Origin: Mycolicibacterium madagascariense
GTDB lineage: Bacteria; Actinomycetota; Actinomycetes; Mycobacteriales; Mycobacteriaceae
Reading direction: 5' to 3'
Assembly: GCF_010729665.1 (NCBI RefSeq)
Contig: NZ_AP022610.1
Span: forward strand, 434,001-498,000
Length of the DNA stretch: 64,000 bases
Under the pieces are notes generated by a model. It was not told where the DNA came from, made no database searches, and saw only the letters and a program-made list of their open reading frames with translations. The translations under genes and the position numbers were made by a program. Below, in pieces: positions 3,001-33,360 of this stretch. Numbering within the stretch: position 1 is the first letter of the stretch; every line of letters starts with the position of its first letter.

Positions 3001-6000
3001 CGAAACCGGCAGTGCCGACGTGGTTTTCGGCACCACGGTCGCGGGCCGGCCGCCCGAGCTACCCGGCGTCGAGAACGTCATCGGACAGTTCCTCAACACC
3101 GTGCCGGTCCGCGTCGACGCCACCGCACACACCACGGTGCGCGAAGTGTTGCGTCGCGTCGAGGACTTCCGCGTCGACCTGATGGGACACGACTACGTGG
3201 GGCTGGGTGACGTCATGCGCGCCGCAGGTCACCAGCCGCTGTTCGACGTGCTGTACGTCTGGCAGAACTTCCTGGACGACGACACGTTCACCGACTTCGA
3301 ACGCCAGCACGGCATCGTCGGCGTGGACTTCGTCGACACCACGCACTACCCGTTGACCTGGGTGCTGACACCGGGCGAGCGCCTCGGCATCAAGCTCGAG
3401 TACCGGCCCGACGTCGTCGGTGCCGAGCGTGCCACCGCCATGGTTCGGCGCCTACGTCTGGCGGTGGAAGCGATGCTGGCGCAACCGGATACCGCGGTCG
3501 GTCAGCTCGACCTGGTGCTCGACGCCGAGCGCGATGCGCTCGCCCGCCGTTGGCGCTCGGCCGAGCACGAGGTCGGGGACGATACGATCGCCGACCTCCT
3601 GGCCGAGCGCGCCGCACGCCGTCCGGCGGACACCGCACTCGTGTGCGGGGACGCCACGCTGACCTACGCCGAGCTCGACGGCCGGGTCAACGCCCTGGCC
3701 CGCCAACTGCTGGCCCGCGGAGCCGGGCCCGAGCGGATCGTCGCTCTGGCCCTGCCGCGGTCGCTGGACATGGTCGTCGCGCTCTTCGCCGTACTGCGCA
3801 CCGGGGCCGCCTACCTCCCACTCGAACTCAACTATCCGACGGCGCGACTGGCCGCCGTGGTCGACGACGCGAAACCCGTTCTGCTGGTGTGCCTCTGCGC
3901 AAGCGACGAATTGGTGGGACACCAGGTGGGCAGCGGCCGGCGGGTGCTGCGGCTCGACGACCCGGGGGTGGCGGAGGCGTTGTCGCGCAGCGCGGCCGGG
4001 CCGTTGACCGACGCCGAACTGGGCGACTTCTCGAGAAGCGTGGGGCCACGACGCCTCGATCATCCCGCCTACGTCATCTTCACCTCCGGGTCGACGGGTC
4101 GGCCGAAGGGTGTGGTGACCCCCTACCGCGGGCTGACCAACATGCAGCTCAATCACCGCGCGGCCATCTTCGACCCCGCGGTCGCCAGGGCGGGCGGTAG
4201 ACGGCTGCGGGTGGCGCACACCGTGTCGTTCTCCTTCGACATGTCGTGGGAGGAGCTGCTGTGGCTCGTCGAGGGCCATGAGGTCCACGTCTGCGACGAG
4301 GAACTGCGCAGGGATGCAACGGCACTGGTGGCGTATTGCCGTCGGCATCGCATCGACGTCGTCAACGTGACGCCCAGCTATGCACACCACTTGTTCGAGC
4401 AGGGTCTACTCGACCCCGGCACTTCCCCCGCCCCGACGCTGGTGCTCCTCGGCGGCGAGGCCGTCTCCGACGAGGTGTGGCGCCGGTTGCGGGACCTACC
4501 CGACGGCGGCGGGTACAACCTCTACGGCCCGACCGAGTACACCATCAACACCCTCGGCGCCGGCACCGACGACAGTGCCACTCCGACCGTGGGACAACCC
4601 ATTTGGAACACTCGCGCCTACGTGTTGGACGCGTGGCTGCGGCCGGTCGCCGACGGCGTCGTCGGCGAGCTCTACGTCACCGGTGCCGGACTGGCCCGCG
4701 GTTATCTGCACCGGCCCGCGCTGACCGCGGAGCGCTTCGTCGCCGATCCGTTCGTGCCGGGCGGCCGCATGTACCGCACCGGCGACCTCGTCGCCCGTCG
4801 CCCCGACGCGGGCGGCACGCTGGACTTCCTGGGCCGCAGCGACGATCAGGTCAAGATCCGGGGCTACCGCGTCGAACTCGGCGAGGTCGGCGCGGCACTG
4901 TCCGCGCTGCCCGGGGTGCGCCAGGCGGTGGCGATTGCGCGACGCGCGGGCGCGGCGGCGGCCAAACAGCTCGTCGGCTACGTGGTGCCCGAGCAGCCGA
5001 CCGGCGACCCGGCGGCCTTCGCCGCCCAGCTGCGGGCCCGGTTGACCGAGACACTGCCCGACTACCTGGTCCCGGCGCGCTACGGCGTCGTCGACGCCAT
5101 CCCCCTGACGGTCAACGGCAAGCTCGACGTCCGGGCGCTGCCCGAGCCCGTCGCGCCCGCCGCCGGGACGGCTCGAGATCCGCGGGACGACCGCGAAGCC
5201 CTGCTGCTGCAAGTCTTCTGCGAGGTGCTCGGCCTGTCCGAGCTCGGCATCGACGACGACTTCTTCACTCTTGGCGGGGACAGCATCTCGTCGATCGCGG
5301 TGTCGGGCCGGGCCCGCAAGGCCGGGCTCGACGTCACACCGCGCGACGTATTCCGGCGCAGGACCGTCGCCGCGCTGGCCGCGGCCGCCGCGACCGTCGA
5401 CGGCCCGGCCGTCGCCACGGCACCCGACAGCGGGGTCGGCGCGATCGCACCGACGCCGATGCTCGCCGAGACCGCGGGAGCGGACACACCGCTGGCCAAC
5501 TTCTACCAGTCCACGGTGCTCGGGACGCCGGCCGGAATGACCGCCGCCCAGCTCGAATCCGTTCTGCAGGCAGTGCTGGACGCCCACGACATGCTGCGCG
5601 CCCGGCTCGACGCCGACTGGACGCTGTCGGTGTCCGACGCGACGGTGCCGGCCGCGCGGGTGCTGACGACGCGGACCGGCGTGCTCGGGTCCTCCGACGT
5701 CGACGTCGCCACCGCCGCGGCAGCCGCCGAGCTCTCGCCCCGGGACGGCCGGATGATCGCGGCCGTCTGGTATTCCGCGGGCCAATTGCTGCTCGTCGTT
5801 CATCATCTGGTGATCGACGGCGTGTCCTGGCGCATCCTCGCCGACGACTTCGCCCGCGCCTGGGCGGCCGTCGACGGTGGGCGAGCGCCGGTCGTCGACC
5901 CCGTCCCGACCTCGTTTCGGACGTGGTCCCACGCGCTGCGTGACGCTCGCTTCGACGACGAAGTCGACTACTGGAGGGGCATTCTCGCGACGCCCGATCC

Positions 6001-9000
6001 CGACCTCGGCCGGCTCGCGCTCGACCCCGCGCGCGATACCGCGAGCACCGTTGTGCGACGATCGTTCTCGCTCCCGGCGGACGTCAGTGCGGCGCTGCTG
6101 TCCACCGCCCCGGCGGCGTTGCACGGTGGCGTCGACGACGTCCTGCTCGGTGCCTTCGCGGTGGCGCTCGCGCAGTGGCGGGCCGATCGCGGTCACCGCG
6201 ACGCCACCGCCGCCGCCGTGAACGTGGAAGGCCATGGGCGCGAACCGGACCTGGTGCGGGGACGGCTGGACCTGTCCCGCACGATCGGCTGGTTCACCGC
6301 CATCTACCCCGTCCGACTGGATCCCGGACGCCTCGACTGGGACGACGTGGTCGGGGCGGGGCCGGCCCTGGTGACCGCCGCCCGCGCGGTCAAGGAGCAG
6401 TTGCGCACCGTACCGAACCGCGGCCTGGGCTACGGGGTCCTGCGGCACGTCGATCCGACGCGGCCCCTTCCCGGCTCCGCCCCGCAGATCCTGTTCAACT
6501 ACCTCGGTCGGTTCGCCGGCGGCAGCGGTCGGGCATGGGAGCCGGTCGCCGGGATCGGCGCGCTGCGCGAGGGCGTGGATCCCACCAATCCCGCGGTGGC
6601 GCTGGAGATCAACGTCATGGCCGAGGACGGTCCCGACGCCACCGTGCTCTCGGGCACCCTGGCCTGGCCTCGGGCGCTGCTCGACACCATCGACGTCGAC
6701 GCGTTGGTGGAGTTGTGGGTCGCCGCGCTGACGGCGCTGACCCGCTGCGACGGGCTCGCCGGCCATACGCCATCGGACTTCCCGCTCGTCGACGTGTCCC
6801 AGGCCGACCTCGACGAGTGGGAGCGGTCCGGAACCGTCGAGGACGTCCTGCCGCTGCTGCCGCTGCAGCAGGGGATGTACTTCCATGCCGCCTTCGGGGG
6901 TACCGACACCTATCGCGTGCAACAGATCGCCGAGCTGACCGGGCCGCTCGACGTCGATGCGCTGCGCGCCAGCGTGCGTGCCGTCGTCGCTCGGCATCAG
7001 GCACTGCGGGCCTGCTTCCGCGAGCTCGAGGACGGCTGGCTCGCGCAGGTCGTGCTGGCCGAGGTGACCGTCGACGTCGAGGTCGCCGACGACCTCGAAA
7101 CGGCTGCCCGAGAACATCTCTCGCGCCAATTCGATCTATCGGACGCGCCGCTGGTCCGCTACGCCCTGGTGTCTCTGGCGCCCGACGATCACCGGCTGAT
7201 TCAGACCATGCATCACATCGTCGCCGACGGTTGGTCGTATCCGGTGATCTTCGGCGACGTCGTCGCGCACTACAACGCCTCGCTCGGAATGGGTCGGGGG
7301 CCGGCGCCGGTGACCGCGACCCTGCACGACCACGTGGAGGTCGTGCACGGCGCCGATCGTGCCGCGGCCGAGCGGACGTGGGCGAGTGCACTGGCCGACG
7401 TCGTCCCCACCACGCTGTGCCCCGAGGCGACGACCGTGGGGGACCATCGCAGCGCCGTGCGGCGCCTGGCGCCGGAAACGACTGCGGCACTGGTGAATAC
7501 GGCTCGCACGCGCGGCATCACCACGAGCACGGTGCTGCACGGCGCGTGGGGGCTGCTGCTCGGCAGGCTGCTGGACCGTCGCAGGGTCGTGTTCGGTTCG
7601 ACCGTGTCGGGCCGGGGCGGTGCGCTGCCCGGCACCGAAACCCTCGTCGGACTGCTCATCAACACCATTCCGGTGCCGATGGCGTGGGAACACCACACGC
7701 CGCTGGGTACCGCGCTGGCGGATCTGCAGGAGCGGATGAGCGCCGTACTGGATGCGCAGCACGTCGGGTTGACGGAGCTGGCCCGCATCACCGGTGTCCG
7801 CGACCTGTTCGACACCATGGTGGTCGTCGAGAACTTCCCGTCCCTGCCGTCGGGTGACGCCAATGACGCTCGCGCACTCATATTTCGGGGCTTCACCGGT
7901 GCCGACGCCCCGCACTACCCGGTGTCGCTGGTGGCCTACCTCGACGACCGACTCACCGTGGAGATCATGTACGACTCCGGCGCGGTGAGCGACGCGGAGG
8001 CCGAACGCCTCGCCGAGCGCGTCGAGGCCGTCCTCACGGCGTTCGCCGAGCGGCCCGACGCGGCGATCGCCGACGTCGACCTGCGGACCGCCGCCGAGCG
8101 CGGGTTCGGCGGTGCCGGGCAGGCCGCGGCGGGTCCCGACCGCACCCTCGTCGAGGGCTTCGCCGCGTCCGCGCGGGCCCATGCGGCCGACGTCGCGGTC
8201 AGCTGCGGTGACGCCACGCTCACCTATGCCGAGCTGAACGCCCGGGCCTCGGCGGTCGCGGGCACCCTCGTCGACCTCGGCGTGCGACCAGAGTCGAGAG
8301 TGGCGGTGGCACTGGGCCGTTCGGTCGACCTCGTCGTCGGGCTGCTGGCCGTCCTCAAGGCGGGTGGCACGTACGTGCCCCTCGACGTCGACTGGCCCGC
8401 CGCGCGGTTGCGTCACGTGGTGGACGACTCGGCACCGGTGTGCGTACTCACCGATCATGCCGACCGGCTGCCGTTCGACGACGTCCCGACGGTCGTATTG
8501 TCCGATGCCGCCGGCGGCGGACTCGACGCGCCGGTAGTCGCGTCGGACCCCGACCACGCCGCCTACGTCATCTACACCTCCGGCTCGACCGGCGTGCCGA
8601 AGGGCGTTGCGGTGAGCCATCGCAACGTGGCTGCGTTGTTCGAGGGTGCCGCGCAGCTCTTCGACTTCGGGCCGGCTGACGTCTGGACGATGTTCCACTC
8701 CGCGGCCTTCGACTTCTCAGTCTGGGAGCTGTGGGGGCCGCTGCTGCACGGCGGCCGTCTGGTGGTCGTCGAGCAGGCCGTCGCGCGCGACCCGGACCGC
8801 TTCGTCGAACTACTGTCGCGCGAGGGCGTGACGGTGCTCAATCAGACGCCGTCGGCGTTCTACCCGCTGATCGAGGCGGACCGGCGACGGCGGCTGCCGT
8901 TGGCGCTGCGGTACGTGGTGTTCGGTGGCGAGGCGCTCGACACGGGTCGGCTCGCCGCCTGGTATGTCAACCACCCCACCGATGCCACGCAACTGGTCAA

Positions 9001-12000
9001 CATGTACGGCATCACCGAGACCTGCGTGCACGTCTCGCACCGGGCGCTGACGTCCGCCGACGCCGACAGCGTGATCGGCGGCCCGATCCCCGGTCTGCGC
9101 ATGCACCTGCTCGATGGCGCACTACGACCCGTACCGGTCGGCGTCGTCGGTGAGCTGTACGTCGAGGGCGGCCAGGTCGCCCGAGGATACGCCGGCAAGC
9201 CGGGATTGACGTCGAATCGGTTCGTGGCCAACCCCTTCGACGCCTCGGGATCTCGGCTGTACCGCAGCGGTGACACCGCGATGTGGACCGCGTCGGGCGA
9301 TCTGGTCTACGTCGGCCGTTCCGACCAACAGGTCAAGGTGCGCGGCTACCGGATCGAGCTCGGCGAGGTCGAGAGCGCCCTCGCCGCACTGCCGGGCGTC
9401 GTCACCGCAGCTGCGGCGGCCCACGACGACGGCGGCCGCACCCGCCTAATCGGCTACCTGGTGGCACGCGAGCCGATCGACACCGCCGACGTGCGCACCC
9501 GTCTCGCCGACCGGCTGCCGGAATACATGATGCCGTCCGCGTTCGTCGTCCTGGACGCCCTCCCGCTGACCGTCAACGGCAAGCTGGACCGGGCCGCGCT
9601 GCCCGTACCCGTCGCGTCGCCGCCGCCCGCCGTCACCGATGCCGACGACGGTCCGGCGGGTCTGCTGGCCGCCCTGTGCACCGAGATCCTCGGCGCGCCA
9701 GTCGGTGTCGACGACGACTTCTTCACCGCGGGCGGCGACAGCATCGTCGCCATCCAGTTGGTCAACCGGGCGCGCAAGCAGGGTGTACGCATCACCCCGC
9801 AGCAGGTGTTCACGTGTCGGACGCCGCGTGCGCTGGCCGCGGCGGCCGACGTCGCCGCGGCTCCGGCCCCCCGCGACGACGTCGAGCCCGACTACGGCGA
9901 GGTCATGGTGACGCCCATCGTGGCGCGGCTCGCCGAACTCGGCGGCACGATCGACGGGTTCAACCAGGCCGAGCTGCTCCTCGCCCCGGCTGATGCGACA
10001 GTGGAGCGCCTGCAGGCGGCGCTCGGCGCACTGGTCCGACGCCACGAGGCGCTCGGTCTGCGGCTGCACCGCCCGGTGCCGATGCTGTGGTCGCTAGAAA
10101 CTGCTGCGGTACCGCCACTCTCGGTACACCGGGTCGACGCCGTCGAGATGACGGACGACGACCTGCGGGAGGCGATCGCGACGCACTCCGATGCGGCGGC
10201 CGCAGCGCTGGCCCCGGACCGCGGCGTGATGATCGCTGCCGTGTGGTTCGACCGCGGCCGGGAGCGTCGCGGCCGGCTGCTCCTCACCGTGCACCATCTG
10301 GCCGTCGACGCGGTGTCCTGGCGCATACTCCTCGACGACCTCGGTGACGCCTACGAGCAGCTGCGGGCCGGGCGCCCACCCGTGCTCCCCGCCGTGCCGA
10401 CGTCGCTGCGCAGCTACGCCAGGGCCGTCAACGAGAACGCCCAGCACGCCTCGCGACTGGCCGAATTCGACCACTGGAGCGCCACGCTGGCAGCGGGCGG
10501 CGAACTCCACGGCGACGCCGTTCCCGTCGGGCTCACCGTCGGGGCGACCAGGGACCACGTCGTGCGGCTGACGACGGCCGAGACGCTCCCGCTGCTGACG
10601 ACGGTCCCCGCGCTGGCGAACGCCGACGTCACCGAAACCCTGGTCGCCGCGCTACTGGTCGCCGTCGACCGCTGGCGGGAGCGCCCCGGGGCGCCGCTGA
10701 CGCTGGATCTCGAACGCCACGGCCGCGACGGCTGGGGTGCCGAACTCGACCTGTCCCGCACGGTGGGGTGGTGTACGGCCATTGCGCCCGTGCGGCTGGC
10801 CGCCCCCGGTGCCGCCGACCTCGTCTCGATCCTCAAGGGCGTCAAGGAGACCCTGCGGGTACAGCCCGAGGGCGGTCTCGGCTTCGGGCAGCTGCGGTAC
10901 TGCAACCCCCGCACCTCGTCGGCCCTGAGCCGGCTGCCCGCTCCGCAGGTGCTGTTCAACTACCTCGGCCGGTGGATGGCCGACGGCACCGACGACTGGG
11001 ATTGCGCGCCAGAGGTCGACGCGCTGCGGGGCGGACCGGCTCCCGACCTCGGCACACCGTATCTGTTGGAGGTCAACGCGATCTGCGACGAGACGAGCGC
11101 CGGACCCGTCCTGCGGGCGACGCTGACCTACGCCGACGGCGAGCTGACCGGTGACGCGATCGCCGGTCTGGCCGACCACTGGCACGCGGTTTTGCGGGAG
11201 TTCGGCGGACTGGCCCGCGAACGGGCCGGCCTCACCCCGTCGGACCTACCACTGGTCGACCTGTCCCAGGACGACGTCGACCGTGTGACAACCGGGTTCG
11301 CGGTCGACGACGTCTGGCCGCTGTCACCCCTGCAGGAGGGCGTGTACTTCCAGGCCCGGTATGCCCAGGCCGCGGTCTACGTCGTCCAGAACGTCTTCGA
11401 CATGACCGAGACCGTCGACGCGGATGCGCTGCGCATCGCGTACTCGGCGGTGATGGCCCGCAATCCGGTGCTGCGGTCGGCGTTCCTGGCCGATGGACTG
11501 CCCCACCCCGTGGCCGCCATCGCCGTCGACCCGGTCTGCGAACCGGAGATCGTCGCAGTCACCGGTGACGCCGAGGTCGCCGAACTCACTGCCGCCGAAC
11601 GGCTGCGCTCGTTCGATCTGACCGCACCCCCGCTGGCCAGGATGACCGTCCTGCGGTCCGCCGAACGCGACCGGCTGATCTTCAGCTATCACTTCCTGCT
11701 GCTCGACGGGTGGTCGCGCGAGCAGCTGCTGCGCGAGCTGTTCGCCGAATACGCCGCAGCACGAACGCGTTCCACGGCTGCGCTGCCGACGCCGAGCGCC
11801 CAGTTCACCGACTATCTGCGGTGGTTGGCCGGCCGGGATCGCGAGGCGTCGGCGGCCCGTTGGGCCGGCGCGCTTGCCGGGCTGGCGGCGCCGACGCTGC
11901 TGGTGCCCGCGGCCGTCGGCACCGAGCCGACGCTGGCGCTGCGGGTGGACTTCACTCTGCCCGAGGACCAGACGACCGCCCTGACGGCCACGGCGCGCGG

Positions 12001-15000
12001 CGCGGGCGTCACGCTCAACGCGGTCCTCAGCACCGCGCTGGCGATGGTGCTGGCCTACGAAACCGGGAGTGCCGACGTGGTGTTCGGGTCCACGGTGGCG
12101 GGTCGGCCCACCGAGCTCGACGGCATCGAGTCGGTCATCGGGTTGTTCCTCAACACGGTGCCGACGCGAATCCAGCTGCAGCCGAATCGATCCGCCGCGG
12201 ACACCATGCGCGCCGTCCAGGCCGACCGCCTGGAATTGATGGACCACGAGTATCTGGGGTTGGGCGACGTCCAGCGCGCGGCCGGCGTGAACGGGCCGCT
12301 CTTCGACAACCTCTTCGTGTTGCAGAACTTCCTCGACGACGACACGTTCACCGACATGGAGACCGAGTACGGCATCGCCGGACACGACTCGGTCGACGCC
12401 TCGCACTACCCGCTCACCTGGGTGGCGTCGCCGGGTCGCCGACTGTGGGTCAAGCTCGAATACCGACCCGACGTCGTCGACCGCCAGTACGCCGAGCGAC
12501 TGCTGGAGCGGCTACGGCACGTCCTTGGTCAATTGACCACTGGCGCAACTACTCTCGCCGAGATCGATGTCCTCCTGCCCGATGAGGCGCCGGCCGCCGA
12601 CGCCACCGGACACGACCTGCCCGACGCGACCGTACTGGACCTGCTGGCACAGCGCGGTGGCGTCGCGCCGCTGGACACCGCGCTGGTGTGTGGTGCCGAC
12701 CGCGTCGACTTCGGTGGCCTCGACGCGCGGGTCAACCGGCTGGCGTGGCTGCTCCGCCACCGCGGCACCGGACCGGATCGGACCGTCGCGCTGGCCATTC
12801 CGCGGTCCATCGACACCGTCGTCGCCCTGTTCGCGGTGCTGCGGGCGGGCGCCGCGTACCTGCCGCTGGAGCTGGACTATCCCGACGAGCGACTGGCCGT
12901 CATGCTCGCCGACGCCACGCCGTCCCACGTGGTGACGACGTCGGCCGTGGCACGGCGGATCGAGCCGCTGCTGCCCGGCGGATGCGCGGTCGTCGTCCTC
13001 GACGACGAGCCGGAACTGGCTGTCCAACGGACGGATTGGGACGGCTACGCGCCCAGCCTCGACGAGGCAGCCTACGTGATCTACACCTCCGGCTCGACGG
13101 GCCGGCCCAAGGGTGTCGTCACGCCGCACCGCGGCCTGACCAACATGCACCTCAACCACCGAGAGGCAATCTTCGCCCCGGCGATCGCCAAGGCGGGCGG
13201 CCGCCGGCTGCGGATCGCCCACACCGTGTCGTTCTCCTTCGACATGTCGTGGGAGGAGCTGCTCTGGCTGATCGAGGGACACGAGGTGCACGTCTGCGAC
13301 GAAGAGCTGCGCAGGGACGCCTCGGCCCTGGTCGCCTACTGCCACCGGCATCGGATCGACGTCGTCAACGTCACCCCGACCTACGCGCAGCTGCTGTTCG
13401 AGCAGGGCCTGCTGGACCCGTCGGGCCACCCACCGGTCCTCGTCCTGCTCGGCGGTGAGCCGGTCTCGACCGCGGTGTGGGATCGCCTGCGCGACAGCGA
13501 CACCACCTACGGTTACAACCTCTACGGTCCGACCGAGTACACCATCAACACCCTCGGCGGCGGTACAGACGACAGCGCCACCCCCACCGTGGGCCGTCCG
13601 ATCTGGAACACCCGCGCGCACGTCCTGGACCCCTGGCTGCGGCCGGCACCCGATGGCGTCGCGGGCGAGTTGTACGTCGCGGGAGCGGGACTCGCCCGCG
13701 GGTACCTCCGTCGGCCTGCGCTGAGTGCGGCCCGCTTCGTCGCCGATCCGCACGAGATCGGCGGCCGGATGTACCGGACCGGTGACCTGGTCCGACGGCG
13801 GCGATCCACCGACGACCGCGCGGGCAATCTGGACTTCCTCGGCCGCACCGACGACCAGGTCAAGATCCGGGGTCACCGCGTCGAACTCGGAGACGTGGAG
13901 AGCGCCATCACCGTACACCCGGACGTCGCACACGCGGCCGTCGTCGCCCGGCCGGACCCGAACGCCGCGGGCTCGCAGCGGCTCGTCGGATACGTCGTCC
14001 CGGCCGTGCCCACCGACGACGACCTCGCCACCCGGGTCCGCGCGGATCTGCGGGATCGCCTGCCCAGCTTCATGATTCCCTCGGCGCTGGCGGTGCTCGA
14101 CGCCCTGCCGCTGACCGACAACGGCAAGCTCGACGTACGAGCGCTGCCCGACGTCGACCCGCGCGGCCGACGTCCCGCGGGCCGGCCGCCGCGGACCGCT
14201 GCCGAGGAACGGCTCTGCCGGCTGTTCGCGGACGTCCTCGGCGTGGCCGCCGTCGGCGTCGACGACGACTTCTTCGACCTCGGTGGACATTCACTGCTCA
14301 GCATCCGGCTCATCGGTCTGGTGCGCGCCGAACTCGGCGCGGAGATGTCGCTCAAGCACGTCTTCGACGCGCCCACCCCCGCGGCCCTCGCCGCGCTGCT
14401 GGCCGGCCAGTCGGCGGACGCCGCGGCGCCACGACCCCCGCTGGTAGCCGCCCGCCGACCCGAGTGCATCCCCACCTCGCCCGCGCAGGAACGGCTGCTG
14501 ATCCTCGACCGGCTCGAGAACACCGCGGCGGCATACCATTACCCGCTGGTGTTCCGCGTGCGCGGCGCGTTCGACGTGGACGCACTCGGCGCTGCGCTCG
14601 GCGACGTCGTCGATCGGCACGAGTCGTTGCGCACGGTGTTCGGCGAGCACGACGGCGTCCCGTTCCAGTGCATCCTGCCCGCGGGGACCACGCCGACGCT
14701 GCGCGTGGTCGACTGCGCGGCGGCCGACGTCGCCGCTCTCGTCGACGCGGCCGTAGAACCGCGGTTCGACCTGAGCTCCGACATTCCGTTGCGCGCGAAC
14801 GTCTTCCGCGTGGCAGACGACGATCACACGGTGGCACTCGTCCTGCACCACGTCGCCACCGACGAATGGTCGGATGCGCCGTTCCTTGCCGACCTGAACC
14901 GCGCGTACGCCGCCCGGGTCGCCGGCGACGCCGACGCCCAGGTCCCGCTGCTGGTGCAGTACGCCGACTACGCGCTGTGGCAGCGTCGACTGCTCGACGT

Positions 15001-18000
15001 GGTCGGTGAGGACCAGCTCGCGTTCTGGCGGGACACGCTGGCCGGCGCACCCGACGAGCTGGCCCTGCCTACCGACCGACCGCGCCCAGTCCAGCCCAGC
15101 GGCGAGGGTGGCAGCCTGGTCGTGGACGTGCCGACGGATGTCGTTGCGATGCTGCGGAGTCTGGCGGCTGAGCGTCAGGTCAGCATGCTGGTGCTGTTCC
15201 ACGCGGGGGTCGTGGCGCTGCTGCACCGCATGGGAGCCGGTGACGACGTCGTCGTCGGCACGCCCGTCGCGGGTCGCACCGAGACCGCGCTGCACGACCT
15301 CGTCGGGTTCTTCGTCAACACCGTCGTGCTGCGGGTCGACGCGTCGGGCCACCCGTCGTTCGACGAGTTGCTGGCGCGCGCGAGGACAGCCGACCTCGCC
15401 GCGTTCGCGCACCAGGACGTGCCCTTCGATCGGGTCGTCGAGGACCTGAACCCGCCGCGCGTGGCGGGCCGCAACCCGCTGTTCGGCGTGTTCGTCGGCT
15501 ACCACCGGCACGAGGGCCGCGACGACGAGATGTTCGGGCTGCCCACGCAGTGGAGTGAACCCGTCTCGACCGCAGCGATGTTCGATCTCGGGTTCACCCT
15601 CGTCGACGACCGCGCCGGCGGCGGGGCGACGGTGATGGCGGAGTACGGCGCCGACCTGTTCGACGAATCCACGGTGCGCACGCTGACCCAGCGGCTGGTC
15701 ACGTTGCTCGCCGACGCGATCGCCGACACCGCGGTCGCGATCGGCGCGCTGGAGGTGCTGGCCGACGGCGAGCGCGACGCGCTGATAGTCGACCGCAACG
15801 ACACCACCCACGTCGTCGCGCCGACGAGCCTGGGCGCGCTGGTCTCGCGCACGGCGCAGCTGTCACCCGACGCCACGGCCGTGGTGTTCGACGACCTCGC
15901 GCTGACCTATGCCGAACTCGACTCCTGGTCGGATCGATTGGCGGCCAACCTCGTCGAGGGCGGCGCGGACCCCGGCCGGATCGTCGGCGTCGCGCTGCCG
16001 CGGTCGGTGGAACTGGTCGTCGCACTGGTGGCGGTCGCGAAGTCCGGCGCCGCCTTCTTGCCGTTGGACCCGGAGTATCCGCCGGATCGCCTGGCGTACA
16101 TGACCGCCGACGCGGGCCCGACCACGGTGCTCGACGACCCGGCCTGGATACGCGCCGCCCGCGACCGGGACGTGGCGGCGCCGTCGGCCGACGTCGACCC
16201 CGCCGGTTGGGCCTACGTGCTGTACACCTCCGGGTCGACGGGACGGCCGAAGGGCGTCGCGGTGCCGCACGCCGGCATCGTCAACCGCATCGCGTGGCTG
16301 CAGCACGCCTACCCGCTCACCCCGGCCGACCGCATGCTCGTCAAGACGCCGATCGGCTTCGACACCTCGGTGTGGGAAGTGTTCTGGCCGTTGGCCGTTG
16401 GTGCGACGTTGGTCGTGGCCCGGCCCGGCGGTCATCGCGATCCCGCCTACCTCGCGGAGGTCGTCGTGCGCCACCGCGTCACGGCCGTCGACTTCGTGCC
16501 GTCGATGCTCGAACTCTTCCTCGACGAGCCCCGCGCGGCGACGTGCACGACGCTGACGAGGGTCACCGTTGGGGGCGAGGCACTGTCGACCGAGCTCGCC
16601 AACCGCTTCGCCGCCATCGTCGGGGTGCCCCTGCACAATCTGTACGGCCCCACCGAGGCCGCGGTCGACGTGCTCGGGTGGACCGCCGACGGGGGACCGG
16701 TCGCGCTCGGGGTGCCGGGCTGGAACGTGCGCGTCTACGTGCTCGACGGCTACCTGAACCCCGTGCCGGTGGGCGCGCCCGGTGAGTTGTACCTCGCGGG
16801 AGTCCAGTTGGCCGACGGCTATCTGCACCGCACGGGGCTCACCGCGCAGAGCTTCGTGGCGAACCCGTTCGAGGCGGGCACCCGGATGTACCGCACCGGT
16901 GACGTGGTGCGCTGGCGCGGGGACGGTCAGCTGGAGTACCGCGGCCGCACCGACGAGCAGATCAAGCTCCGCGGCGTCCGCATCGAGCCCGGTGAGATCG
17001 AGACCGTACTGACCGGCCATCCGGCGGTGGCCTCGGCGCGGGTGGTCGCGCGCGGCGACCGACTGATCGCCTACTATCTGACGGTGTCCGGGGTCGACGC
17101 ACCGTCCGCGGAATCGCTCCGCGCCCAAGCATTGTCAGTGCTTCCGACGCACATGGTGCCCGCGGCCTACGTCGCGTTGGCGTCCTACCCGCTGACGCCG
17201 AGCGGCAAGCTCGACCGCGCGGCGCTGCCGGCACCCGAGCTGACGACCGGCACGGGCCGCGCCGCGGAGACGCCGCGCCAACGACGGCTGTGCGAGCTGT
17301 TCGCCGACGTTCTCGGGGTACCGGTGGCGAGCATCGACGACGACTTCTTCACTCTCGGTGGACATTCGCTACTGCTGGTGCGTCTCGCGTCGCTGCTGCG
17401 CCGGGAGTTCGACGTCGACGTGTCGGTCGCGCGCTTGATGGCGGCTCCCACGGTGGCGCAGGTGGACGCCCAGCTCGCCATGGGTGACGCCGACGCCCCC
17501 GACAGCCTGGCGCCGGTGCTCGCACTGCGCACCGCGGGGAGCGAACCGCCGCTGTTCCTGCTGCACCCCGCCAGCGGACTCGGCTGGCAGTTCACCGGCC
17601 TGAAGAATCATGTGCCGCAAACCATTCCGATGTACGCGCTACAGTCGCCACTCTTCTCCACCGGCGTTCTGCCCCGGACCATCGACGAGCTGGCCTCGGA
17701 CTACGCAACGACGGTGTCCGCGCTCGCCCCGAGCGGCCCGATCCGCCTCCTCGGCTGGTCGTTCGGCGGCTCCATGGCGCTGCTCGTCGCGCAGGAGTTG
17801 GTGCGGCGTGGTCGCAACGTGACCTTCGTGGGCATGCTCGATGCCCGCACCGACGTCGCGACGGTCGCCGAGTTCGATCCCGCCGCGGCGCTCACCGGCC
17901 TGCTGCGCGAGATGGGCTTCCCCGTCGCGGCGAACGCGCGGACGACGGTCGACGAGGCCGTCGCCCTGGTGCGCTCCAGCGACGACGCGATCGCGATACT

Positions 18001-18274
18001 CGACGACGCGCAGATCGCGATGGTCATCGAAAACTACGTCGCCGCAGAACGATTCACGGCGGGCGCGGACTACGGCCGCTACGGCGGTGACGTCTTCTTC
18101 GTCGACGCCACGGTGCTCGAGATGGACCTGACCGGTGTCGCGTCGCAGGGCTGGCGCGACCACGTCGCGGGTGAACTACGCGTCGTGGCGCTCGACTGCC
18201 GGCACTCGGAGCTGATGGACGCGGACGTACTGGACCGGCTGGGCCCGCTCATCGCCGCTGAACTGGCTGATTAG
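2..18274 (+). CDS. Exochelin-type non-ribosomal peptide synthetase (5'-truncated, five A domains, terminal thioesterase)
   Basis: The frame is open from the first bases, so the true start lies upstream; residues here are counted from the GTG at 8. Order: end of a condensation domain (1-130); A1 (148-620) and PCP1 (GGDS, Ser670); C2 (744-1170), A2 (1193-1690), PCP2 (Ser1759), epimerase E1 (1812-2240); C3 (2279-), A3 (2713-3180), PCP3 (Ser3245), epimerase E2 (3300-3720); C4 (3770-), A4 (4208-4700), PCP4 (GGHS, Ser4762); C5 (4822-), A5 (5274-5740), PCP5 (Ser5787); thioesterase with GWSFGG (Ser5918) and a late His in DCRHSE. Ten-residue codes read by eye: A1 VDTVLSSGDK (beta-Ala type), A2 and A4 DMENLGLINK (N5-hydroxyornithine), A3 DFWNVGMVHK (Thr), A5 DTWDTGLVDK (not recognised). 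The predicted product is ...-betaAla-D-hOrn-D-Thr-L-hOrn-X, matching exochelin MS order. The nearby siderophore-binding lipoprotein fits an iron role. Confidence 0.93.
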
Positions 18275-19493: not shown

Positions 19494-19512
19494 TAATGTT
19501 AGCCTAACCAAA
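19494..19512 (+). promoter_or_regulatory. IdeR/DtxR-type iron box
   Basis: TAATGTTAGCCTAACCAAA matches the 19-bp IdeR consensus (TTAGGTTAGGCTAACCTAA) at about 15-16 positions, with the central GTTAG-C-CTAAC palindrome intact. Its last base is the A of the ATG of the siderophore-binding lipoprotein. Iron-loaded IdeR bound here would cover the start of transcription. No Shine-Dalgarno is visible, so a leaderless mRNA is likely. Confidence 0.75.
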
Positions 19513-20507
19513 TGCGACCCACCGGACCGTCTCTGCGCGCGGCGCGCACCCTGGCCCTGCTCTGCACACTGCTCCTCGCGGCGGCGACGCTGTCGGCCTG
19601 CGGCACCACCACCCCCGCGGCACCGGCGCCCGCGGCCGACGCCGTCACCGTCTCGCACCAGTTCGGCGAGACCAGGATTCCCGCGAACCCGCAGCGCGTG
19701 GTCACCGCGGGCTGGATCGACCAGGACTTCGTGCTGGCGCTCGGAGTGGTGCCGGTCGGCACGCGCGGGGGTTACTTCGAGAACTACGACCAGTTCCCGT
19801 GGGTGCAGCAGGCCACCGGCGGCAAGGGCGTACCCGCCATCGACGGCGACACCATCAACTTCGAGGGCATCGCGGCGGCCAAGCCCGACGTCATCTTCGC
19901 CATCAACGAGACCATCGACCGCAAGACCTACGACCGGCTCTCGCAGATCGCGCCGACCGTCCTACAGTCCGCCGACTACCCCGCCGAAGAGACGCCGTGG
20001 AACGTGCAGCTGATGACCACGGGCAAGGCGCTCGGCAAGGAGGACCGGGCCCGCGAGCTGATGGACCGGGTCGACGCGAAGTTCGACGAAGCCAAGGCCG
20101 CGCATCCCGAATTCGCCGGCAAGAGGCTGGTGTCGGACTTCACGTCAGAGGCCAACGCGCACTACGTAATTGGCAAGGGTGACCCCCGCAACGCGATCTT
20201 CGACGGGCTCGGACTGAACACCGGGGACACCGTCGGCGACGTCTCCGAGGAGAAGCTGGGCGTGCTCGACGGCGACGCCCTGTTCGTCAACGGACTCAGC
20301 AGGGAGCAGCTGGCCGGCTCGCCCGCCTTCCAGCGGCTCGGCGTGGTCCGCGACGGTCGCACCCTGTACGCGGGCTCGGACTCGACCCTCAGCGGCGCCC
20401 TCGCCTTCGGCGGACCCAACGCGATGCTCTACGCGCTGAACGCGTTGGTGCCGCAACTGGGCAACGCCTTCACGGGCAAGCCGGTCGCCGACCTGTCCAA
20501 CGCCTGA
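19512..20507 (+). CDS. Iron-siderophore ABC transporter substrate-binding lipoprotein
   Basis: 331 residues. The N-terminus is a lipoprotein signal ending LSAC (lipidated Cys30). The mature part is a class III (FecB/FepB-like) binding protein: VTVSHQFGETRIPANPQRVV at the start, then KPDVIFAINE, NAIFDGLG and a C-terminal lobe ending near GNAFTGKPVADL. It would capture ferri-siderophore at the outer face of the membrane and hand it to a permease that is not in this window. The IdeR box across its start and the exochelin-type synthetase close by suggest that the ligand is the peptide siderophore made by the NRPS; FxuD of the M. smegmatis exochelin system is the obvious comparison. The next gene converges on it 9 bases after the stop. 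Confidence 0.88.
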   Translation: MRPTGPSLRAARTLALLCTLLLAAATLSACGTTTPAAPAPAADAVTVSHQFGETRIPANPQRVVTAGWIDQDFVLALGVVPVGTRGGYFENYDQFPWVQQATGGKGVPAIDGDTINFEGIAAAKPDVIFAINETIDRKTYDRLSQIAPTVLQSADYPAEETPWNVQLMTTGKALGKEDRARELMDRVDAKFDEAKAAHPEFAGKRLVSDFTSEANAHYVIGKGDPRNAIFDGLGLNTGDTVGDVSEEKLGVLDGDALFVNGLSREQLAGSPAFQRLGVVRDGRTLYAGSDSTLSGALAFGGPNAMLYALNALVPQLGNAFTGKPVADLSNA

Positions 20508-27896: not shown

Positions 27897-28115
27897 ATGC
27901 ACGTCACCGCTCGCCATTTCGTTCCGTTCCTCATCGCCGGGGGCGCCGCCGCCGCGATTGCCGCCGCACCGCTGGCTTCCGCCAATCAGATGAGCTGCAC
28001 CGACGTCGGCAATGCCACGCAGTGCGGGTCGCCTGGCAATAGCCAGATCACCGCCAACGCGCCCGTGGTGCAGCAGCCGCCGCAGCTCATCATCATTCAC
28101 CGCGGTCGGTTCTGA
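27897..28115 (+). CDS. Small secreted protein, function unknown
   Basis: 72 residues. The N-terminal signal peptide (ARHFVPFLIAGGAAAAIAAA) probably ends at LASA, leaving about 43 residues with two Cys (SCTDVGNATQC) that could form a disulfide. The tail is QPPQLIIIHRGRF. AGAGGA lies 5 bases before the ATG. I do not recognise the family; short Cys-pair exported proteins of this type are common in mycobacteria. It ends 18 bases from the convergent coiled-coil gene. Confidence 0.7.
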   Translation: MHVTARHFVPFLIAGGAAAAIAAAPLASANQMSCTDVGNATQCGSPGNSQITANAPVVQQPPQLIIIHRGRF

Positions 28116-28133
28116 CCGGGGTGTAGTAGGCGA

Positions 28134-30263
28134 TTATTCGGCGGGCTTGGAGTCTGCGGGCTTCTGGTCGGCCTTGGAGTCCGAGGGCTTCGTTTCCGCA
28201 GGCTTCGTCTTCGCTGACGTGGATTCCGTCGGCTTCGTCTCCGCAGGCTTCGACTCGTCGGGCTTCGACTCGGCCGGCTTGGTCTCGCCCGGCTTGGTCT
28301 CGCTCGGCTTGGTCTCGTCGGGCTTCGACTCCGCCGGCTTGCTTTCGTCCGGCTTCGACTCGCCCGGCTTGGTCTCCGCTGGCTTCGACTCGCTCGACGC
28401 GGACCCCGACGCGTCGGATTCCGCTGGCTTGGAGTCAGTTGGCTTCGTCTCGGCCGGTGTCGTCTTCGCTTCTTCGGACGACTCCTTCTTCTGGTCCGCA
28501 TTGTCCGAATTGGCCGGTGGTGTCGGGCTCGGCGCCGTCTCGTCCTTGGAAGGCTCGGGGTCACTCTTCTCGGCAAACGGTTCGAGGAGCTTCGACGCTT
28601 CTTCGTACGCCTTCAGCCTTTCCTGGTAGCGCGGGTTCTTGCTTCCCGGGCCATACATGTCCGAGGCGAACTTCAGTTCGAGCCAAGCCTTGGCTGCCTT
28701 GGCGCTGAGGCGATCTCGCTCGGCGGCCAGCTTGTCGGCTTCCTCCTTCTTCTTCGCGGCCTCGGGGTCTGCCGCCGCGGCCTCCTTGGCTGCCTGCCGC
28801 TCGGCCTCTTCCCGAGCCGCACGTCGCTTGTCCGCCCTGTTGACCTGCGCCACCAAGTCTTCGTAGTGCTTACGGGCTTCCAACTCCGTCTGATTGGCGC
28901 CGCCCAGCTTGTTCACGGCGTCGTCGAAGGCCCGCTGCTTTTCCTTCGTACGCGGGTCATCGGCTCCATAGGCCTGCTGAGCATCGGTGAGTTCCTGGTT
29001 TGCCTTGTCTGCGCTGACCTGTAGGGGCGCGGCTGCTTCCTGGGCCGACTTCATGCGCGCCTTGGCCTCGTCCACCTCTTCGGCGGGGGGACCGTAGATG
29101 TTCCTGGCCTCCTGTCGCCGGGCCTCTGCGTCCTCCGCTTGCCGAGCCTGGGCCGCCTTGTTCTTCTCGACCAAGCTCTGGTAGAAGTTTCCGCTCTCCC
29201 ATTCCTGGTGATACACAACGGTGTTGGCCTGCACCGCCTCATCGAAGATGCGCTGCTTCTCCAGGTAGCGCGGATCGTTCATGCCGTAGGCCTGTCGGGC
29301 TGCCCACGCTTCGTCCTGCGCCTTGTCCACGATGGCCTGCAGTCGGATGCCTTCGTTTTGGAGCGCGAGTGTGCGGTTGTTGGCTTCCTCGAATTGGGCG
29401 TGACTTACTCCGCCCCAATTGGCGAGGCTTCGGAATTCGGCCTCTTCCGCGGCCGCGTCCTTAGCCTCTTGGGCCTCGCGCTTCTTCACCGCCTCGTCGG
29501 CCCGGTCCATGAGAGCCCGCTGGGCTGCCCTAGCCGCCTCCGCTTTGTCTTCGGCTGCTTTCCAGGCCCAGAACGCGTCGTTCTCTCCCCACTCGATTTT
29601 TGAGCGTTCGCTCTTTGGATATTTTCCCGCAAAGTATGCTTCGGCAGTTTCGTGGATCTTTTGGTGCCACGATTCGTAGATGTCCTTTAGGCGTCTGGAT
29701 TCTTTCTGAGCCGCGTCTGTCTTGTTGTATGCGTCGTCGAGCTCGGCTTTGGTGGGCCCGCCCCACTTGACGGCCACTCGATCTTCTTCCGCGCGCTGCG
29801 CGGCCGCGGCATTGGCGGCCGCGTCGGTAACCCTCTTCTCCAGCTGAGTGACGATATTGCTTGCGGCAGTTGCCTTCTCGTCAGCCGCCTTGAGGGCCAA
29901 CTGGGCGTCGTTCCATACGCGATACTTCTCGGCGAAACGCGGATCGTCCATGTTTCCGCCGCTGTTCTTGAGGGCCTCGTCGCGTTCACGTCGCGCTTGC
30001 TCTTCGACGCCTTGGAGCCGGACGAACTCACCTCGGGCCAGCAAGTAGTTCACGTCCGCGTCGTTGCGTTCTCGCTGCGACGGGACCCCTGAGGGTTGGG
30101 TGTTCGACGAGGTGGTGCAGTTGGCGTCTGCAGTCGTGCACTCCGCGAATGCCGGCGCCGCTGCCATCAGGGCGCCGGACAGGAAGGCCCCCGACGTCAC
30201 CGCGGTCGCCACGAGTGCGCGCACGCGGCTGGCCGGGTCGTTGCACATCCACTTCTCGTTCAC
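28134..30263 (-). CDS. Exported coiled-coil repeat protein with Lys-Pro repeat tail (protein A)
   Basis: 709 residues, not recognised. The start is GTG at 30263, with AGGAG 7 bases upstream. A signal peptide ends near APAFA (residue 40). Residues 70-565 are charged, Ala-rich helical sequence predicted to form coiled coil. It is made of about five repeats of 80-115 residues whose signature is a Tyr-Gly, then (D/N)DPR(Y/F).EK.R, then an aromatic and ..A; these cores fall at residues 107, 330, 436 and 542. The second copy (about 166-285) has lost the signature. Repeats 2 and 3 open with a W-G-G block. Residues 602-709 are a disordered ETKPx/ESKPx tail. No sortase, lipid or transmembrane anchor is visible. 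Stretches of the gene, for example around 29580-29720, look clearly more AT-rich than the neighbours. It shares its architecture with the gene at 30579-32351. Confidence 0.8.
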   Translation of the reverse strand: MNEKWMCNDPASRVRALVATAVTSGAFLSGALMAAAPAFAECTTADANCTTSSNTQPSGVPSQRERNDADVNYLLARGEFVRLQGVEEQARRERDEALKNSGGNMDDPRFAEKYRVWNDAQLALKAADEKATAASNIVTQLEKRVTDAAANAAAAQRAEEDRVAVKWGGPTKAELDDAYNKTDAAQKESRRLKDIYESWHQKIHETAEAYFAGKYPKSERSKIEWGENDAFWAWKAAEDKAEAARAAQRALMDRADEAVKKREAQEAKDAAAEEAEFRSLANWGGVSHAQFEEANNRTLALQNEGIRLQAIVDKAQDEAWAARQAYGMNDPRYLEKQRIFDEAVQANTVVYHQEWESGNFYQSLVEKNKAAQARQAEDAEARRQEARNIYGPPAEEVDEAKARMKSAQEAAAPLQVSADKANQELTDAQQAYGADDPRTKEKQRAFDDAVNKLGGANQTELEARKHYEDLVAQVNRADKRRAAREEAERQAAKEAAAADPEAAKKKEEADKLAAERDRLSAKAAKAWLELKFASDMYGPGSKNPRYQERLKAYEEASKLLEPFAEKSDPEPSKDETAPSPTPPANSDNADQKKESSEEAKTTPAETKPTDSKPAESDASGSASSESKPAETKPGESKPDESKPAESKPDETKPSETKPGETKPAESKPDESKPAETKPTESTSAKTKPAETKPSDSKADQKPADSKPAE
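28137..28460 (-). repeat. Period-15 bp (period-5 aa) coding repeat, Lys-Pro tail
   Basis: Degenerate 15-base units encode (E/D)(S/T)KP(A/D/G/S) about twenty times, ending at the stop codon of the coiled-coil protein. A low-complexity, highly charged extended tail of this kind could span the cell wall or bind anionic polymer. Its unit number is likely to vary between strains by slippage. Confidence 0.85.
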
Positions 30264-30578
30264 TGATCATCTCCTGGTCATGTTGTTGGGCGAATTAGGC
30301 AGCCGAGTCGACGATGGGCCAACCGGCTGGGATTGTTCGTTCTAGCGGAATCCAATTGCCTGACAGCGATATTCGTATCGTCATGTCGTGCTCAATGGCG
30401 AGGTCGTCGATCGTCGTGGTGTCAGCCTCCTACTCCCTGGTGTTGCCCAACTCCGTTGCACCGCAGTGTTATCAAAGTGGGTCGACTCCCAGCGACTGCT
30501 AGTTGCACTTGCACGGCCCGAAGACCAACCCGGACGCGCTGTCCAGAAACGACTTTTGTCGTCGGAGGCTGCTCCGCC
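30264..30578. other. Intergenic region between the two coiled-coil genes
   Basis: 315 bases without a convincing gene. The part next to 30264 carries the ribosome site (AGGAG, 30271-30275) of the downstream coiled-coil gene and must hold its promoter if the two genes are not co-transcribed; I see no clear -10/-35 pair. Near the other end is a small hairpin that may end the upstream transcript. Short frames here have no support. Confidence 0.5.
30549..30562 (-). terminator. Possible weak terminator after coiled-coil protein B
   Basis: Read on the minus strand, ACGAC-AAAA-GTCGT forms a 5-bp stem followed by TTTC, 17 bases beyond the stop codon. It is short, so read-through into the next coiled-coil gene is plausible. 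Confidence 0.3.
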
Positions 30579-32351
30579 CTAAGGCTTAGCCGTCTCGCCC
30601 CCGCCGGACGTGTCGGGTTCGTCATCCGTCGTCGCAGTCTGGGTCTGTCCGCCCGAGGGCTCATCCTTCGATGGGCTGGCCGTCTCGTCTTGGGGCCGTT
30701 CGGTTTCCGACCCTGCCGGCGTCGGTTCCTTCTTCGCGGGGCTCGTCGCGCCCGCGTCCCCTCGATCCTTCGCCTGCGCGGAGGGGTCGACGGCCTCATC
30801 CTTGGCATCGTGGTCACGGGCAGCCCGTGCCGCCGCTGCCTCCTCTGCAGCCTTCTGCAGAGTGTGTTCTTCCATTTCGGCCTGCGCGGCCTTCTCCTTT
30901 GCCGACTTCGTCGCATCATCGGCGGCGTGATACGCGCGAAGTTTTTCTACCCATCGCGGATCGTTGCGGTCGGCGCCGCTGGTCTTGCCCGCGTCGTTGA
31001 GCTCGTCCTTGATCTTGTTCTCGACGTCTTCGAGGCGGGCGGCTTCGTCTCGCGCGGCCTGGGTCTTCTTCCTGGCGGCGTCGATCTCCGCCACCGAAGG
31101 ACCCGCCAGCGCCTTGGCCCTCGCCTCCTTGACGGTGACGGGCTGCCACGTGTTCGCCGCCTCTTCGAACGCACGGTGCTTCTCCTGGCAGCGAGAGTCT
31201 TGGCACTCGACGCCGAAGTCCAACCGGGCCTTTGCATACTCCCGCCACGTCTTCGTGAAGACGGCATCGAGGCGCTCACGCTCTGCTCGCACGGCGGACA
31301 ATTCGTCGTGCGCGCGCCGCGCACCGTCCACCTCGTCGAACTTCTTCGCTAGCGCAGCCGCGCGATCGCTGGCTATGCGGGCCTTGTCCTCGGCCTCCCG
31401 CAGGGCCGCGTGCGCGGCCGTATAGGCGTCGGTGCGTGCGCTGACGAAGCTACTCAGTCGTTCCCGTTGTAGCGGGTCCGAGCTCACGACCTGGTTCGTC
31501 AACGTCGCATTCTCATATTCTCGCCGTGCCTGGACTTCGACGGTCCTCGCGCGGTCGACTTCTTCGCGAGCGAGGCGCGACGCCTCCTTGGCCTCGTCCA
31601 CTTCGGCGGCTGTCGGACCCTCCCGCCTGGGGGTCTCGTCCTGGGTCTGTCCCGTTGCCACCCCGCCGGACTTCTGCTCGAGGCTCTTGACTCGTTCGTC
31701 CGCGGCGTCGGACCTGTCCTGCGCTGCCAGGAACGCCGTGAGGGCGTCGGTGTATGCCCGGGTCTTCTCCTGGTAGCGGGGGTCGGCGCTGCCGACGCCG
31801 AAGGTCTTCTGCGCATCCCAGAATTCCAGCTGCGTCTTCACCATGTCCTGGTTGATGCGGTGCGTCTCGTCGAGGGCCGCCTGCGCATCGCGCTTCGCCG
31901 CAGCGATCTCATCCTCGGTTGGGGCGACGGCCTGCTCGACCGTGTGGACTCGATCGTCTGCAGCGCTTGCCTTCTGCACTCCAGTCGCGAGTGTGTTGAG
32001 AGCACGCTGGGTTCCCTCGACCTTTTCGCGATAGCGCGGGTCGCTGCTACCCACGCCGTAGACGTTCTGCGTATTCCAGAGCTCTTCGGTGGCTTGATCT
32101 GCGAGCCCGCGCAGGCGGTCGACCTCGTCGTGAGCCGCCTGCGCGTCACGCTTGGCCGCGTCAACATCTGCCTGTGTGGGACGACCTGCTGTGGGACAAG
32201 AAGATTGATTCATCGATGCGGCGGCGCACGTCGCCCCCGCTGAAGGAGCCACGGACAGCGCCCCCGTGGCCAACGCCCCCGATGCCAGAATGCCGGCCAT
32301 GAGCGCGCGGACACGGCCCGCGGGGTCATCCCAATTCAGCTTCTCCACCAT
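30579..32351 (-). CDS. Exported coiled-coil repeat protein (protein B, paralogue of protein A)
   Basis: 590 residues, not recognised. The start is ATG with AGGAG 7 bases upstream, the same arrangement as its paralogue. The N-terminus (WDDPAGRVRALMAGILASGA) closely parallels that of protein A (CNDPASRVRALVATAVTSGA), and cleavage is likely after SAGA (residue 40). Residues 56-510 hold five repeats of about 80-100 residues. Each starts like PT.A(D/E)(V/I)DAAK.. and carries a (S/N)DPR(Y/W).EK..AY core (residues 104, 190 and 464; decayed forms at 291 and 383). In repeat four the core reads CQDSRCQEK, introducing a Cys pair. The last 80 residues are acidic and disordered. An envelope or extracellular structural or binding role is inferred only from export and coiled-coil content. 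Confidence 0.8.
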   Translation of the reverse strand: MVEKLNWDDPAGRVRALMAGILASGALATGALSVAPSAGATCAAASMNQSSCPTAGRPTQADVDAAKRDAQAAHDEVDRLRGLADQATEELWNTQNVYGVGSSDPRYREKVEGTQRALNTLATGVQKASAADDRVHTVEQAVAPTEDEIAAAKRDAQAALDETHRINQDMVKTQLEFWDAQKTFGVGSADPRYQEKTRAYTDALTAFLAAQDRSDAADERVKSLEQKSGGVATGQTQDETPRREGPTAAEVDEAKEASRLAREEVDRARTVEVQARREYENATLTNQVVSSDPLQRERLSSFVSARTDAYTAAHAALREAEDKARIASDRAAALAKKFDEVDGARRAHDELSAVRAERERLDAVFTKTWREYAKARLDFGVECQDSRCQEKHRAFEEAANTWQPVTVKEARAKALAGPSVAEIDAARKKTQAARDEAARLEDVENKIKDELNDAGKTSGADRNDPRWVEKLRAYHAADDATKSAKEKAAQAEMEEHTLQKAAEEAAAARAARDHDAKDEAVDPSAQAKDRGDAGATSPAKKEPTPAGSETERPQDETASPSKDEPSGGQTQTATTDDEPDTSGGGETAKP

Positions 32352-32487: not shown

Positions 32488-33360
32488 CTAGCGCACGACC
32501 ATTCGACGAACATCGCCAGCCGTGGCGATGAATCCGGGCAGCGCGTCCTGACTTTCGATGGGTTGCAGGGCAATGGTGTCGATCCCCGCGTCGCGGTAGG
32601 GCTGAAGCCCGGCCGCAATGTCCTCGGCACTCCCGCCGACGCCGAACTCCCCGCCGTCCGGCACCTCGAGCCGCGCTGCTTCCTCGGCGAGCAGCCGACC
32701 CGGATCGTCACCGGGCACGCACACCAAAAAGATCACCGTGGTGAACGGTCGGTCTCCGGCGGAGGCCCGACCCGAAGCAACGTGACCGATCGCCTCGCCG
32801 ACCGTGGTGGTCGAGTAGCGGCTGTCGAGGATGACGCCATCGGCGATCTCGCCCGCCAGCTTCAGCGTCTTCGGGCCCGTGCCTCCGATGAGGATGGGCA
32901 GCCGCTGCTCCGGGGCAAACTCGAGCTGCACGTCGGTCAGAGTGACGTAGCGACCACGCACGGTGACGTTCTCCCCGGCCAGCAGCGCCTGCAGCGCCGT
33001 CACGTATTCGCGCAGCAGGGTCATCGGCGAGTCCACGGCCGAACCCGCCTGGCGCATCCAGCTCTGGACGCCGTGGCCGACCGCGATCTGCACCCGGCCC
33101 GGGAACGTCGCCTCCAGCGTGGCGAACTCCATGGCGGCGGCAGCGACGTTGCGCAACGGCGCTGGGACCAGACCGACGCCCACCCTGAGCCGCTCGGTCG
33201 CGGCCAGGGCAATGGCGACCTGAGCGATGCCGCCCTGCAGGAAGCAGTCCTCCCACAGCCATAGTTCGTCGACGCCGGCGGCTTCGGCCGCTAGGGCCGC
33301 CTCCCGCAGACCTTCGGGGCGATAGGTCGGGCGGTAGATGACGGCGAGTCGAGTCTGCAT
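32488..33360 (-). CDS. LLM-class (F420-dependent family) oxidoreductase
   Basis: 290 residues forming one luciferase-like TIM-barrel domain. Visible family segments are LRVGVGLVPAPLRNVAAAAM, FPGRVQIAVGHGV, RLPILIGGTGPKTLKLAGEIADG (given here in parts) and a C-terminal AGIDTIALQPI. In mycobacteria such proteins mostly use coenzyme F420; FMN use cannot be excluded from sequence alone, and the substrate is unknown. The ATG at 33360 was chosen because the fold starts immediately after it; an upstream extension of the frame to 33633 has no family resemblance. It lies upstream of the coiled-coil gene on the same strand, with a 136-base gap, and 55 bases downstream of the MOSC gene. Confidence 0.8.
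   Translation of the reverse strand: MQTRLAVIYRPTYRPEGLREAALAAEAAGVDELWLWEDCFLQGGIAQVAIALAATERLRVGVGLVPAPLRNVAAAAMEFATLEATFPGRVQIAVGHGVQSWMRQAGSAVDSPMTLLREYVTALQALLAGENVTVRGRYVTLTDVQLEFAPEQRLPILIGGTGPKTLKLAGEIADGVILDSRYSTTTVGEAIGHVASGRASAGDRPFTTVIFLVCVPGDDPGRLLAEEAARLEVPDGGEFGVGGSAEDIAAGLQPYRDAGIDTIALQPIESQDALPGFIATAGDVRRMVVR

Follow-up and report, generated by a model that had tools for sequence, protein, structure and literature searches.

The Mycolicibacterium madagascariense genome (5.94 Mb in two contigs) carries, within a 64,000-nucleotide stretch that we call the window (contig 1, NZ_AP022610.1, positions 434001-498000), two adjacent minus-strand genes for predicted exported proteins that share a helical repeat. 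The list of open reading frames bears out both genes described in the original prediction: gene A (28134-30263; GTG start, 709 amino acids) and gene B (30579-32351; ATG start, 590 amino acids), with B upstream of A and 315 bp between them. The ribosome-site spacing, claimed to be identical, is so: AGGAG, 7 bases and the start codon follow one another in the same arrangement in A and B. The 4-kb block at 28001-32000 has the lowest GC content of the window's 16 (0.645), and GC content at third codon positions is 0.78 for A and B alike, the lowest among 33 frames picked.

Each protein consists of a leader, five helical-hairpin repeats and a charged tail, all encoded on the minus strand; the leaders are supported by a held-out profile, and the repeats by a hand-cut alignment, profile searches and AlphaFold2 models. 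In B, the leader (signal peptide and the pair Cys42 and Cys52; 32196-32351) precedes repeats spanning 30834-32180 (units 31923-32180, 31617-31922, 31329-31616, 31101-31328 and 30834-31100) and an 80-residue tail (30582-30821). In A, a leader of the same kind (Cys42 and Cys49; 30117-30263) is followed by repeats at 28563-30083 (units 29757-30083, 29409-29756, 29091-29408, 28746-29090 and 28563-28745), the second with a degenerate turn, and by a 141-residue tail of Pro, Lys, Glu, Ser and Thr with 16 [ST]KP units (28137-28559). Both tails are acidic (isoelectric points of 4.77 in A and 4.28 in B) and disordered-looking. No anchor helix or LPxTG motif was found in A or B, and no C-terminal hydrophobic segment: over the C-terminal 60 residues, the most hydrophobic stretch of 19 residues has a hydropathy of -1.41 (A) and -1.06 (B). 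Retention of either protein would therefore need binding to a polymer or to another protein.

The repeat is common to both proteins. A and B align by BLASTP with E=1.9e-17 over 574 columns, and in a MAFFT alignment the five units of A and the five of B fall in register. With unit borders placed by hand at the motifs, a hidden Markov model (HMM) of the A repeats finds all five units of B (42.5, 43.5, 16.3, 33.1 and 45.3 bits; total 155.8) against a shuffle maximum of 15.2 bits, and the reciprocal B-repeat HMM scores four units of A well (46.9, 20.5, 26.7 and 32.9 bits) and the whole of A at 99.3 bits against a maximum of 17.6 bits; the controls comprised 1000 full and 1000 seven-residue-window shuffles for each HMM (n=2000). 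The fifth unit of A is scored weakly and in a shifted position (11.0 bits, residues 497-538), two extra fragments in A both fall below 0 bits, and reversed A and B sequences score about -40 bits. On these comparisons A and B are paralogous proteins, each with five copies of one repeat; the original prediction had proposed about five. Fifteen units, including those of the relative P0002 introduced below, give the consensus P...E...A.....AA..E..RL.....KA..E...A...YG....DPR..EK.RA...A. The conserved DPR core that had been described is present in most repeats, the exceptions being A repeat 2 (an AGKYP turn), B repeat 4 (DSR) and B repeat 3 (DPL).

The repeat was also thought to be undescribed, and we found nothing curated that names it. 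Pfam-A and NCBIfam contain no family matching A or B up to E=1, and the A/B/P0002 full-length profile found nothing among PDB sequences at E<=0.01; neither A nor B matched a PDB sequence. Among the abstract openings listed by literature searches we saw no description of the repeat or of the leader family, which falls short of proving that none exists. The sole relative found in a database of 5.8 billion proteins is the metagenomic protein P0002 (631 amino acids). It has 48% identity to A across the 580 residues used as query (E=2.8e-133) and was also found with B as the query (E=7.3e-20). Two protein-database searches scored the best 8000 and 7999 candidates by shared words; a third failed to recover the genuine relative P0002, and its negative result is accordingly weak evidence. 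A repeat-profile search, which had been suggested for actinobacterial proteomes and was run here on genus genomes, matched 1 of 198 and 1 of 396 genomes, the source genome each time, with at most 26 and 13 candidates scored per genome. Across the order it matched 2 of 397 genomes, the second match being judged unrelated. Two scans of GTDB-220 contigs, a set from which records very near the source genome may be left out, confirmed no relative.

AlphaFold2 models, made from three-row alignments, present each repeat as a helical hairpin, in keeping with the helical array first proposed. Mature A (mean predicted local distance difference test score, pLDDT, 85.1; predicted template modelling score, pTM, 0.38) has ten helices of 38/59/40/66/39/60/39/61/38/22 residues; B (mean pLDDT 77.1, pTM 0.40) has nine, since repeats 3 and 4 are joined by one continuous helix formed of the second arm of the former and the first arm of the latter. 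First arms span 38-40 residues in the nine measurable repeats, and the second arms of A1-A4 are longer, at 59-66 residues; the first two hairpins of B have arms of equal length. The second arm begins with D/N-P in 8 of the 10 repeats, the same place being Y-P in A2 and D-S in B4. The first arm begins with P-T or P-S in six, the other starts being V-S (A3), P-P (A4) and A-D-P (A5), with the first arm of B4 fused to the arm before it. These starts are helix-capping signatures, in the manner of capping boxes, and in the models the signature motifs, the DPR turn included, are helix caps, so the conserved letters would set where the arms begin. Fold searches with the models returned common long-helix arrangements only.

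The leaders connect A and B to a larger family. When the leaders of A, B and P0002 are aligned, RVRAL and two Cys do not vary; the pattern of the family reads R.RALVAG..(T/A)SG.L..GA, ending A.A and followed by Cys. A profile from these three leaders, run on 198 genus genomes at the loose threshold of E<=0.05, matched 108 of them, with 19 places in the source genome and at most four in any other. On inspection, these matches proved to be proteins of exported type that share the signal peptide and usually have the Cys pair. Among the 17 source-genome places besides A and B, 14 belong to a set of 18 loci, A and B included, defined by a later 14-row profile (one short frame of 86 residues being excluded): clusters of five (1.407-1.422 Mb), four (4.450-4.459 Mb) and two (5.650-5.653 Mb), the A/B pair, and five lone loci. 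All source-genome members except one have the Cys pair after the signal peptide, and a second module, GC...FS.AI.LG, follows the signal peptide in 14 of the 18. At E<=1e-4 the 14-row profile matched 71 of 297 genus genomes, with 18 matches in one other genome (G648) and 1-8 in the rest; the 18 in G648 (L093-L096) perhaps reflect an independent multiplication. Relatedness of the A and B signal peptides, part of the original prediction, is upheld by a profile of 11 other source-genome leaders from which both, and P0002, were held out: A scores 31.8 bits, B 34.3 and P0002 40.5. Block shuffles (2000 each) reach at most 13.5 bits for A and 14.3 for B, and none of the 2000 attains the true score for either protein or for P0002. 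Members are often tandem genes, and those tested have no Pfam or NCBIfam name. Judged from sequence, this leader is the mark of an exported mycobacterial family for which we found no curated name, and the A/B pair appears to be a lineage-specific offshoot of it.

What stands behind the leader differs between this genome and others. Loci were retrieved from 55 of the 70 other genomes with matches, for the most part the highest-scoring ones in each. Frames were counted if they reached E<=1e-5 and had bodies of 90 residues or more, a short source-genome frame being dropped, and body composition served as a proxy for helix type. The combined share of K/E/A/D/Q/R is 0.49-0.90 in 18 of 18 source-genome bodies (median 0.60), whereas it is 0.18-0.41 in all 80 bodies from the 55 other genomes (median 0.27). 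The G/N/T/S/V/I share exceeds it in 79 of those 80 and equals it in one (G091). Nearly all of the other-genome bodies are rich in Gly, Asn, Ser and Thr, mostly with AIAIG..A motifs, and all 11 examined in G648 are of the Gly/Asn/Thr-rich type; two bodies of the Gly/Asn-rich type match no Pfam family. The Gly/Asn-rich AIAIG..A bodies look similar to YadA heads. In the genomes examined, the family, whose leader occurs in roughly one in four of the genus genomes searched, has helix-type bodies in the source genome and other bodies elsewhere.

Several loci deserve separate mention. The 16 further source-genome leader genes (L055, L056, L057, L058, L059, L060, L104 and L105) have frames of 343 to 1674 residues with Lys/Glu/Ala/Asp-rich bodies, coiled-coil-like by composition, many with acidic Ser/Thr/Asp-rich tails. 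In one of them (L058, about 6332-11241; G000:C1:4451331-4456240), the leader and the 1674-residue frame with the second module lie in different frames, which may reflect a frameshift, a sequencing error or decay. In three other genomes (L063, L065 and L068), argS and an acyl-AMP ligase gene, both named by eye, flank two leader genes whose bodies are Gly/Asn-rich with AIAIG..A motifs; at another such site (L062) there is a single gene of this kind, and neither Pfam nor NCBIfam names its product.

We infer, at what we would call an even chance, that A and B are exported structural rods that act together, A with B, as a spacer or coat at or under the cell surface. Both would be exported by Sec and lose the signal peptide, leaving a short N terminus with two Cys, which likely form a disulfide, then five hairpins in series and a disordered, charged tail. 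The repeat motif would serve as a structural ruler, with a P-T/S-x-x-E cap starting most first arms and a D/N-P cap most second arms. As the second arms of A1-A4 are longer than the first, consecutive hairpins would stagger into an extended rod. The two proteins would probably serve jointly as envelope rods or spacers, their tails reaching into the wall or outside. It is possible, though we hold it more tentatively, that the leader and its small Cys module form an export cassette that takes varied bodies; every copy examined here would have exchanged a beta-type body for a helical rod, making an 18-gene coat in which A and B are the most regular members, a two-component capped-hairpin ruler.

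Known systems resemble the pair in part. With the leader-defined family A and B share the signal peptide, the Cys pair and the frequent tandem arrangement; they differ in carrying hairpin arrays, without the second module, where members elsewhere mostly have Gly/Asn/Ser/Thr-rich bodies. The heparin-binding haemagglutinin HBHA, a mycobacterial surface coiled coil, has a basic Lys/Ala/Pro-rich tail and is not known to carry a signal peptide; A and B, with their leaders and acidic tails, differ on both counts. PS2, the S-layer protein of Corynebacterium glutamicum, is described as exported and all-helical, with a coiled coil, a disordered region and a C-terminal hydrophobic segment that binds the mycomembrane, and as reported only in Corynebacterium (PMC12021427). 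Set beside PS2, A and B are alike in their Sec-type leader (from the leader alignment) and helical body (from the predicted helices), but they lack a C-terminal hydrophobic segment and match no PDB sequence. To our knowledge, little has been learned about protein coats in mycolic-acid bacteria beyond the S-layer of Corynebacterium. An exported family that combines a single leader with exchangeable bodies makes such proteins open to searches throughout the genus, and the capped arm of 38-40 residues is a building rule open to direct structural work.

Several points weigh against the rod interpretation and the family history behind it. Export as a pair, as originally proposed, is favoured by the signal peptides and the tandem position; the pairing rests on that position, and the 315-bp gap would allow separate transcription as well as a shared operon. 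The helix-rich composition makes helix prediction easy, and with the pTM values above and three sequences per alignment the models do not fix how the hairpins pack. Thirteen of the 14 rows of the later leader profile come from the source genome, so the per-genome counts favour that genome, and the rows of the held-out profile were themselves found with the A/B/P0002 profile. The second module is absent from A and B, which keep the two Cys, and from two other source-genome members; we therefore file A and B as leader relatives and not as full members. The repeat profile scores no other fetched source-genome body (best in any frame, 3.9 bits), which confines the demonstrated common descent to the leader; the bodies behind it may be of separate origin.

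Of the other explanations, the best-placed is that A and B are polymer binders inside the envelope, whose tails or helices bind and organise peptidoglycan, arabinogalactan or capsule glucan with no surface role. The [ST]KP units of A, the charge of both tails and the lack of a hydrophobic anchor would suit it, but Pfam and NCBIfam searches up to E=1 yielded no sugar- or peptidoglycan-binding domain, and we consider it unlikely. Somewhat less probable again is that the two are surface adhesins or decoys which diversify in the face of a host, a grazer or phages. Multiplication of leader genes with a body type different from that of other genomes would fit such a role, as would a repeat confined to one of 396 genus genomes and one metagenomic protein; the body, however, is regular and has no known ligand-binding domain. 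A colicin-like role, or another kind of delivery by means of a long helical hairpin, is very improbable. The single PDB match of the repeat profile below 0.01 is colicin E1 (6wxh; E=6.5e-4), which likewise has a long Ala/Lys/Glu-rich hairpin. That match is one stretch of high composition bias, from a single hairpin against five here and without a DPR cap at the turn. The next matches are unrelated coiled coils (E>=0.048), and the Pfam and NCBIfam searches up to E=1 gave neither protein a catalytic or pore domain; the similarity is probably one of shared coiled-coil composition. Least credible of all is an origin as tape-measure or tail proteins of a prophage remnant, a family that the original prediction had named as one the repeat might match: the repeats are long and helical, tape measures appear in the BFVD search of viral folds (best E=0.018, TM-score 0.14) and 34 residues of B resemble a tail assembly chaperone (phrog_25000, E=0.0041), but A and B have signal peptides, no viral fold matched at E<=0.001, the only other PHROGs match up to E=1 was phrog_15141 (0.81) and not a tape measure, no phage family was named among eight neighbours scanned, and of 50,697 phage records only three matched A by tblastn, all in the low-complexity tail.

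The original observation is thus confirmed and its interpretation partly supported. It held that function is not apparent from the neighbours, which overlooks the 16 further leader loci: sharing the leader, these paralogues inform function where the neighbours do not.

The site itself points to a difference from relatives. On the left lies a plus-strand gene for a small secreted-type protein of 72 amino acids (27897-28115), which matches no Pfam family and is 68-75% identical in relatives; on the right is a minus-strand gene for a luciferase-like (LLM) oxidoreductase (32488-33360), identified by library and relative searches. A close LLM relative occurs in 14 other genomes, and we examined the best seven (L048-L054). 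In six of the seven the two border genes are convergent neighbours, the spacing of their aligned ends ranging between a 10-bp overlap and a 22-bp gap; here they stand 4372 bp apart, with A and B between them. The small gene is missing from one relative (L050) and matched in part in another (L048), and no repeat-profile match occurs in the seven loci. Gain of A and B in this lineage is the simplest and most likely reading, loss elsewhere being also possible, and a site empty in relatives makes it simple to compare closely related bacteria that have the pair with others that lack it. Genes for an abhydrolase and an FAS1-like dehydratase region lie here between the small gene and a DUF3418 helicase gene; neither gave a tblastn match in the three relatives' loci tested. 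Farther off, a very large nonribosomal peptide synthetase frame (8-18274, plus strand), with three adenylation and three condensation stretches in its first 3000 residues, is followed by a periplasmic-binding-protein gene (19512-20507, plus strand); together they are perhaps a siderophore locus.

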